Origin: Glandiceps talaboti
Lineage: Eukaryota; Hemichordata; Enteropneusta; Spengelidae
Assembly (NCBI RefSeq): GCF_964340395.1
Contig: NC_135549.1
Coordinates: forward strand, 9,948,342-10,012,341
Direction: 5' to 3'
DNA: 64,000 nucleotides
Positions 34,701-37,700 of the stretch are shown here, piece after piece. How positions within the stretch are numbered: the first letter of the stretch is position 1; each line of letters opens with the position of its first letter. A program made the translations under genes and the position numbers. The notes beneath the pieces are model-generated. The model did not search any database. It was not told the DNA's origin and saw nothing but the letters and a program-made list of their open reading frames with translations.

Positions 34701-37700
34701 GTGCAAGTATTTCACGTAAAAAAAATGTTCTTCAATGTCAACTGAGCTAGGAAACTACAAGAAAATACCGTAATATATGTACATGCTATAGAACCTACTA
34801 AAAGCTTAAGTTTTACATTTATTTATCAAATTTAGGTGAATTTTTAATCCAGGTTTTCGTGATGGCATTGCTTCGGTCTGAATAAGATTTCACTATAGCC
34901 ATTTATAAACAGAGTTCTCCTGGTAATGACGAACTATAAACTCACCCTTGCCAAGCATATCGTTACTCAGTAATTGAAGTATACCATCCGGTAATGACGA
35001 ACTATAAACTCACCCTTGCCAAGCATATCGTTACTCAGTAATTGAAGTATACCATCCAGTAATGACGAACTATAAACTCACCCTTGCCAAGCATATCGTT
35101 ACTCAGTAATTGAAGTATACCATCCAGTAATGACGAACTATAAACTCACCCTTGCCAAGCATATCGTTACTCAGTAATTGAAGTATACCATCCGGAAATG
35201 ACGTACTATAAACTCATCCTTGCCAAGCATATCGTTACTCAGTAACTGAAGTATACCATCCGGAAATGACGTACTATAAACTCACCCTTGCCAAGCATAT
35301 CGTTACTCAGTAATTGAAGTATACCATCCGGAAATGACGTACTATAAACTCACCCTTGCCAAGCATATCGTTACTCAGTAACTGAAGTATACCATCCGGA
35401 AATGACGTACTATAAACTCACCCTTGCCAAGCATATCGTTACTCAGTAACTGAAGTATACCATCCGGAAATGACGTACTATAAACTCACCCTTGCCAAGC
35501 ATATCGTTACTCAGTAATTGAAGTATACCATCCAGTAATGACGTACTATAAACTCACCCTTGCCAAGCATATCGTTACTCAGTAATTGAAGTATACCATC
35601 CGGAAATGACGTACTATAAACTCACCCTTGCCAAGCATATCGTTACTCAGTAACTGAAGTATACCATCCGGAAATGACGTACTATAAACTCACCCTTGCC
35701 AAGCATATCGTTACTCAGTAATTGAAGTGTACCGTCCAGTAATGACGTACTATAAACCCACCCTTGCCAAGCATATCGTTACTCAGTAATTGAATTATAC
35801 CATCCAGTAATGACGTACTATAAACTCACCCTTGCCAAGCATATCGTTACTCAGTAATTGAAGTATACCATCCGGAAATGACGTACTATAAACTCACCCT
35901 TGCCAAGCATATCGTTACTCAGTAATTGAAGTATACCATCCAGTAATGACGTACTATAAACTCACCCTTGCCAAGCATATCGTTACTCAGTAATTGAAGT
36001 ATACCATCCAGTAATGACGTACTATAAACCCACCCTTGCCAAGCATATCGTTACTCAGTAATTGAAGTGTACCATCCGGAAATGACGTACTATAAACTCA
36101 CCCTTGCCAAGCATATCGTTACTCAGTAATTGAAGTTTATCACTTGGTATCAAAGCATCCTGTACTTGTAGACGTAACCCTTCATCCAACTGTTCCGTGA
36201 TGGTTTCTTGTTTGCCTTCGAGAGAAAAAATATTCATATCACCTAATCTATATACATATACATCCATTCATAACATGTATTATCATGAAACTGATATTTG
36301 TTTGAGAACAAAAAATGACTGTATTCTAAATATGACAGAACCCAATGACGTGCTTGTGACCAGAGGGTCTCAATTGGAGTTATTGTACGTCAAGTGCATC
36401 CTGTTATGATGGATGCTACGACCATACCTTGATGAACATAGTGATGTGGTTCATGGATAGTTTTTTTTATCTTACTATTATTATGTGAATGTTTTGAATA
36501 CACCATAATTATTTTACACTTGATATGGGCGGTATATTCATTGCTGGGTCAATTCTGTCAATTTGTTTGAACGTTTATCCACTCGCCTAACCATCCATGA
36601 TGTTATTTATGCAATATTCGTCACTTTTGTTGTAATGACTAACTATAAAATCACCCTTGCCAAGCATATCGTTACTCGGTAATTGAAGTGTACCGTCCAG
36701 TAATGACGAACTATAAACTCATCTTTGCCAAGCATATCGTTACTCAGTAATTGAAGTGTACCATCCAGTAATGACGTACTATAAACTCACCCTTGCCAAG
36801 CATATCGTTATTCAGTAATTGAAGTATACCATTCAGTAATGACGTACTATAAACTCACCCTTGCCAAGCATATCGTTACTCAGTAATTGAAGTATACCAT
36901 TCAGTAATGACGAACTTTAAACTCACCCTTGCCAAGCATATCGTTACTCAGTAACTGAAGTATACCATCCAGTAATGACGTACTATAAACTCACCCTTGC
37001 CAAGCATATCGTTACTCAGTAATTGAAGTATACCATTCAGTAATGACGAACTATAAACTCACCCTTGCCAAGCATATCGTTACTCAGTAATTGAAGTATA
37101 CCATTCAGTAATGACGTACTATGAACTCACCCTTGCCAAGCATATCGTTACTCAGTAACTGAAGTGTACCATCCAGTAATGACGTACTATAAACTCACCC
37201 TTGCCAAGCATATCGTTACTCAGTAATTGAAGTGTACCATCCGGTAATGACGTACTATAAACTCACCCTTGCCAAGCATATCGTTACTCAGTAATTGAAG
37301 TATACCATTCGGAAATGACGTACTATAAACTCACCCTTGCCAAGCATATCGTTACTCAGTAATTGAAGTATACCATCCGGAAATGACGTACTATAAACTC
37401 ACCCTTGCCAAGCATATCGTTACTCAGTAATTGAAGTATACCATCCAGTAATGACTAACTATAAACTCACCTTTGCCAAGCGTATAGTTACTCAGTAATT
37501 GAAGTTTATCACTTGGTATCAAAGCATCCTGTACTTTTAGACGTAACCCTTCATCCAGCTGTTCCGTGATGGTTTCTTGTTTGCCTTCGAGAGAAAAATT
37601 ATTCATATCAGCAAATCTATATAATGCATTTATAACATTTATGCAATATTCGTCACTTTTGTGGCTATCGGCATGGTCTTGTTGCTTGGCATATGTTCAT

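Follow-up and report, generated by a model that had tools for sequence, protein, structure and literature searches.

A donor-spanning minisatellite, probably of the amphioxus "mirage" kind, in a MET/RON-like receptor kinase gene of the acorn worm Glandiceps talaboti (Hemichordata)

How does a gene live with an exon-intron border that has been copied a dozen times or more into the intron behind it? The question is raised by a 64,000-nucleotide stretch of DNA from Glandiceps talaboti (NC_135549.1, positions 9,948,342 to 10,012,341; "the window"), in which two 68-bp tandem arrays, A and B, lie behind two copies, exons A and B, of a juxtamembrane exon of gene 1, which encodes a MET/RON-like receptor tyrosine kinase (Table 1). 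An earlier interpretation made from the letters alone (the sequence-only reading) had taken the arrays for a tandemly amplified 5' splice site and offered several possible consequences. We consider it likely that the array belongs with the donor-spanning minisatellites known in amphioxus as "mirages", here found in a hemichordate. The repeat is most likely harmless, and this explanation proposes no function for it.

The arrays form two minus-strand blocks of 18 (array B) and 13 units (array A), which proceed in exact 68-bp steps without a single insertion or deletion among the 31 units (low ends of units at 34912-36068, n = 18, and 36621-37437, n = 13). Tandem Repeats Finder (TRF) reports both blocks as one joint entry (34922-37505, period 68, score 2841), and arrays with a period of at least 20 appeared in none of 50 dinucleotide shuffles of positions 33001-40000. 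The number and register of units given by the sequence-only reading are confirmed. Its description of the unit as an exon end, a 5' splice site and a piece of intron also holds, with exact lengths of 34 nt of exon end (CTTCAATTACTGAGTAACGATATGCTTGGCAAGG), the donor GTGAGT and a further 28 nt of intron, so that exon and intron contribute 34 nt each and every unit spans the border. The donor assigned to both exons, AAGG/GTGAGT (the slash marks the exon-intron border), is correct for exon B, whereas exon A has AAAG/GTGAGT. In each array the opening unit is the genuine exon end, and the final unit matches over only about 57 of 68 nt, which places the end of array homology near 34922 and 36632. With the two partial units set aside, the remaining 29 have an average pairwise identity of 95%.

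The host gene is a receptor tyrosine kinase, as had been read from the letters, and kinase matches and Pfam domains place it in the MET/RON family. Its kinase part matches MET best among PDB sequences (E 1e-41), followed by RON, and the NCBI protein model P0001 (hepatocyte growth factor receptor-like, from this enteropneust) carries the tyrosine kinase, TIG and PSI domains of these kinases (Pfam, one stretch each for PSI and TIG/IPT). Exon 1 of gene 1 weakly matches plexin ectodomains (E 1.5e-8); a Sema domain is not reported by Pfam for P0001. In a comparison by eye, the exon joins of our 18-exon model recur in P0001, which begins later and includes exon A as well as two further exons of the ectodomain. 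Between exons A and B, 5 of 114 positions and 3 residues differ, and three of the nucleotide differences fall within the last 34 nt. Judged by frame, phase, homology to MET and the NCBI protein model, both are coding exons, and this evidence together with the unit anatomy bears out the proposal that a real exon-intron border was amplified.

P0001 holds A and B in a row and so contains, unlike MET and RON, a duplicated 38-residue juxtamembrane segment; by eye, a single segment is present in P0002, P0003, P0004 and the Ptychodera protein P0023. Over 177 columns of exon plus upstream intron, A and B are 90% alike, and the far end of array A shares an identical 26-mer with the region upstream of exon A. 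Together these likenesses suggest that exon and array were duplicated in tandem as one piece, with a later insertion ahead of exon B. As a separate observation, a dispersed repeat of about 111 bp occurs in tandem in two places (45702-45959 and 50788-51120), and pieces of it lie near 37640-37810, beside the duplicated exon.

Identical 68-mers recur across array A, array B and a six-unit array C in a paralogue (gene 3, see below). In permutation tests that excluded the edge units A1, A13 and B18, neighbouring units were more alike than random in array A (p 0.025), neighbour likeness in array B was not significant (p 0.15), and the two arrays differed as groups (p 0.014). A higher order of three units in array B was not significant either (lag 3, p 0.07). 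Gene conversion or higher-order expansion, to which the recurrent point variants had been ascribed, is accordingly upheld in part: the shared 68-mers and the array A neighbours speak for some homogenisation, the array B neighbours do not. Across all 37 units including array C, the exon part equals that of exon B in 23, and that of exon A is confined to A1, indicating that exon A has diverged or escaped homogenisation. Over the same units the exon half is weakly less diverse than the intron half (permutation p 0.068). Array A is most changed at its edges (5 changes in A1 and 4 in A13 over the first 57 columns, 0-3 in interior units), whereas array B has no such edges (B1 and B18 1 each, interior 0-3). 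The motif TTAGTC is common to A1 and A13 and is perhaps an older state.

Further donor-spanning arrays occur in the same gene family and support an origin as a minisatellite. Among the scored genome candidates the 68-bp unit occurs 37 times, 31 times in the window and six times at C1:10040502-10040902, where the copies (array C) lie at the same donor of a tandem MET-like gene, gene 3 (P0003). A differently built array starts in exon E7 of gene 1, whose donor reads ...ACATTTGTTGG/GTAGGT; its repeat units have GTATGT, GTATGG or GTATAG instead, and exon E7 of gene 3 has two repeat copies (by eye) where gene 1 has six. Copy number hence varies between copies and paralogues at both sites (18, 13 and 6 units of the 68-bp array, six versus two at E7). 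A distant MET-like paralogue on C4 (L048) has two arrays, one at its E10 donor (40 bp x 12.1) and one at its juxtamembrane donor (64 bp x 7.1). We rejected the latter as a recognisable homologue of the 68-bp array, as its intron half resembles the 68-bp unit no more than shuffled sequence does on average and the breakpoints differ. Seven juxtamembrane donors could be read (gene 1 A, gene 1 B, gene 3, L046, L047, L048 and L049, the exon of L049 being a weak match, E 0.002). Four of the seven bear arrays, which on sequence comparison have two apparently separate origins, and TRF found no array at those of L046, L047 and L049. The juxtamembrane exon was not located in L050 or L051; L050 has an intronic array (67 bp x 8) away from any located donor.

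Within gene 1, arrays are found at 3 of 18 modelled donors (E7, A and B), a count that excludes the two exons known only from P0001. At its acceptors, only a weak repeat of 24 bp x 2.1 was noted (48036-48084), over a putative MET-exon acceptor, where two AGs resemble acceptor sites. Across 30 loci, the only TRF arrays of period at least 20 that overlap kinase-exon matches are the 68-bp arrays (L019, L044), the matches being homology stretches and not exact exon ends; the arrays of gene 3 and of C4 fall within L022 and L033. The tandem paralogues also offer two side observations. The 3' part of a second MET-like gene, gene 2 (P0002), lies at 61026-63307 on the same strand, with its juxtamembrane part beyond the window. 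Exon identity between genes 1 and 3 alternates (E13 83%, E14 94%, E15 85%, E16 97%, E17 84%, E18 96%), a pattern that suggests patchy gene conversion between them.

The many near-perfect decoys that had been described behind two donors are indeed present, and both exon donors fit the reading frame. Exact AGG/GTGAGT is kept in 24 of the 29 decoys (10 in array A, 14 in array B), three donors are weakened (A13, B2 and B6) and two have lost the GT (A12 and B14), leaving 27 with GT. Predicted pairing with U1 is -9.6 kcal/mol for the 24 intact decoys, the same as for the donor of exon B, and weaker for the other five. The donor of exon A, at -10.2 kcal/mol, is predicted to pair slightly better than its decoys, whereas 14 decoys behind exon B equal that exon's own donor. 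Splicing at any decoy position (12 of 12 in array A, 17 of 17 in array B) would run into the same in-frame stop codon, which lies in the first unit to be added and ahead of the kinase. The NCBI model P0001, itself a prediction, joins E11, A, B and E13 via the exon-proximal donors. Because most decoys are equally strong and their use brings a stop codon, we infer that splicing picks the exon-proximal donor, presumably through exon definition. For exon B this choice would require a positional preference, since U1 pairing is equal.

Could the array instead be a functional bank of U1 sites, controlling expression through unproductive decoy splicing, a block of premature polyadenylation or a slowing of the polymerase? 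The 24 perfect decoys with U1 pairing equal to the exon B donor, the early stop reached from every decoy position, as poison splicing would need, and the different array at the donor of the same exon in the C4 paralogue all speak for it. The donors of 31 interior decoys (11 in array A, 16 in array B, i.e. 27 in these two, and 4 in array C), however, are not significantly more conserved than the rest of the unit. Counted by letters, 6 of 279 are changed in the donor 9-mer and 63 of 1829 in the rest of the unit (Fisher p 0.36); counted by columns, the figures are 4 of 9 and 15 of 59 (Fisher p 0.25). Neither count indicates significant selection in either direction, in a comparison whose power is lowered by the units' common ancestry. 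In addition, copy number differs among paralogues, and the juxtamembrane donors of L046, L047 and L049 are free of TRF arrays. The donor competition, U1 platform and polymerase slowing proposed by the sequence-only reading find no support in decoy conservation, in decoys that would all truncate the protein, or in P0001 with its exon-proximal splices. We regard a functional array, a U1 platform included, as unlikely.

Alternatively, exons A and B might be mutually exclusive alternatives whose choice is enforced partly by the arrays. Their equal length of 114 nt, their shared phase 1-1 and their difference of only 3 residues would suit such a pair, but P0001 has them consecutively, its name carries no isoform label and the two are in frame together, which makes this arrangement quite improbable. 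Least probable of all, and hardly to be expected, is an assembly artefact with a wrong copy number or a false exon duplication: tandem arrays are easily mis-assembled, and a lancelet globin array is reported to have been aberrantly assembled in a draft (PMC3087553), but here point variants distinguish the units, exons A and B differ at 5 positions, several loci carry differently built arrays and the contig, at 35.9 Mb, is a long one.

The best fit is slippage as the seed of a satellite, an alternative that the sequence-only reading had itself listed. The seed may have been a tandem duplication across the exon-intron border, with growth and homogenisation by unequal exchange and conversion, and copies A and B would have arisen when the exon with its array was duplicated in tandem. 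A duplication that runs from exon into intron would preserve the exon and its first donor, so that the extra copies are intronic, nearly neutral and free to persist and expand. The array would be tolerated because splicing takes the exon-proximal donor.

Such boundary-straddling repeats have precedents. Minisatellite-like duplications of intron-exon boundaries were described for amphioxus globin genes, where the units measure 150-160 bp; such duplications had earlier been termed mirages in Adh3, whose units are 10-72 bp long (PMC3087553). The BflGb6 array has 6 and 3 units in two haplotypes, and the globin mirages are reported to show concerted evolution from which the cluster edges are excluded, with reverse transcription PCR suggesting normal splicing (PMC3087553). 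Splicing is reported as undisturbed in both Adh3 and the globins (PMC3087553, PMC3902484), and the known mirage genes, which include the globins BflGb6 and BflGb9, have been extended by PGBD5, with up to 7 copies, and troponin C (PMC3902484). The Glandiceps units resemble the mirages of these accounts in straddling the exon-intron boundary and in that many carry splice signals (27 of 29 decoys keep GT here). A homogenised interior with distinct edges, as described for BflGb6, is seen in array A and not in array B. Mirages are further characterised by lengths that vary among haplotypes or tissues; here the unit counts vary between array copies and paralogues. Although the anatomy is alike, the taxon differs (a cephalochordate there, a hemichordate here), as does the copy number: there are 18 and 13 units here, whereas BflGb6 has 6 and 3 and PGBD5 at most 7. 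Two further traits set the present case apart from the mirages as described there: the exon was duplicated along with its array, and several arrays occur in one gene family, with two apparently separate origins at the same exon. Literature searches among open-licence publications found no case of mirage-type arrays in hemichordates. In human segmental-duplication genes, minisatellites likewise expand in paralogues and some lie at exon-intron boundaries; there the repeats are reported to alter exons or create introns, in many cases along with alternative transcripts, whereas here the exon is intact and the copies are intronic (PMC2812944).

To place the arrays in their genomic context, motif matches were counted genome-wide, bearing in mind that such counts are dominated by large arrays. 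Three GGTRAGT spaced 38-68 bp apart gave 14,181 matches compared with 12,025 for the reversed motif (1.18-fold), and the full donor MAGGTRAGT gave 1,849 compared with 1,171 (1.58-fold). Grouped by eye in the first 5.05 Mb of C1, the GGTRAGT matches form 13 distinct arrays and the reversed ones 8, one of these 8 being a simple repeat; for the full donor, 10 distinct arrays are found on C1 up to 31.4 Mb among the matches listed. A separate 64-bp array at C1:1499627-1499825 has a unit that seems to comprise a mini-exon together with an acceptor and a donor (TTTCTACAG ... GG/GTGAGT).

Several points weigh against a harmless mirage-type minisatellite. The enrichment of donors in tandem arrays is modest, in a genome that abounds in minisatellites. 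The model that places the splices at the exon-proximal donors, P0001, is a prediction. Decoy donor letters have changed slightly less than the rest of the unit (2.2% versus 3.4%, not significant). Finally, two apparent origins at one juxtamembrane donor are more than purely random seeding would readily give, though the family was chosen via this window. A bolder proposal, which we rate as doubtful though less so than the rival explanations above, is that non-vertebrate deuterostomes (hemichordates and amphioxus) have in common a mutational process by which DNA spanning 5' splice sites is amplified again and again, that certain exon borders, for instance the MET juxtamembrane donor with its two apparently independent hits, are hot spots, and that some donor banks may affect RNA processing.

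Table 1. Positions of the arrays, exons and junction repeats of gene 1 in the window.
Feature	Positions	Strand	Description
Gene 1, MET/RON-like receptor tyrosine kinase	25766..50513	minus	18-exon model from this analysis
Exon E13, next after B	34408..34488	minus	remainder of glycine-rich loop
Array B	34922..36135	minus	18 x 68 bp, final unit partial; from exon B's last 34 nt into intron
Juxtamembrane exon copy B	36102..36215	minus	114 nt, phase 1-1, donor AAGG/GTGAGT; ...LSNDMLGKG; in NCBI model P0001
26-mer, far end of array A	36605..36630		identical to 37637-37662; probable junction of exon-plus-array duplication
Array A	36632..37504	minus	13 x 68 bp, final unit partial; from exon A's last 34 nt into intron
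Juxtamembrane exon copy A	37471..37584	minus	114 nt, phase 1-1, donor AAAG/GTGAGT; ...LSNYTLGKG; in NCBI model P0001
26-mer, other copy	37637..37662		upstream of exon A
Exon E11	38524..38830	minus	transmembrane and beginning of juxtamembrane region
Second donor-spanning array	41135..41498	minus	61-66 bp x 5 plus one partial unit, beginning in E7's last 11 nt
Exon E7, IPT/TIG region	41488..41661	minus	donor bears second array

Elsewhere in the window, long open reading frames (ORFs; up to 365 aa) run on the plus strand at 29951-32895, within the E15-E16 kinase intron and opposite to gene 1. Three of them were scanned against Pfam without a match, and the region is a candidate nested gene or mobile element. 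Exons of a Rap1-like small GTPase were recognised by eye from the ORF list at 3841-6859 (plus strand), with a 27 bp x 15.8 minisatellite upstream of them at 2188-2620.

The arrays extend what was, in the accounts cited, an amphioxus curiosity of few genes to another phylum, and their copy numbers exceed the published counts of 6, 3 and up to 7. Because 14 decoys behind exon B equal that exon's own donor, the locus is a natural assay of exon-proximal donor preference in a situation where U1 pairing cannot decide. Moreover, related exons whose arrays number 6, 13 and 18 units, together with an exon that was apparently duplicated along with its array, show stages through which new exons or introns might arise.
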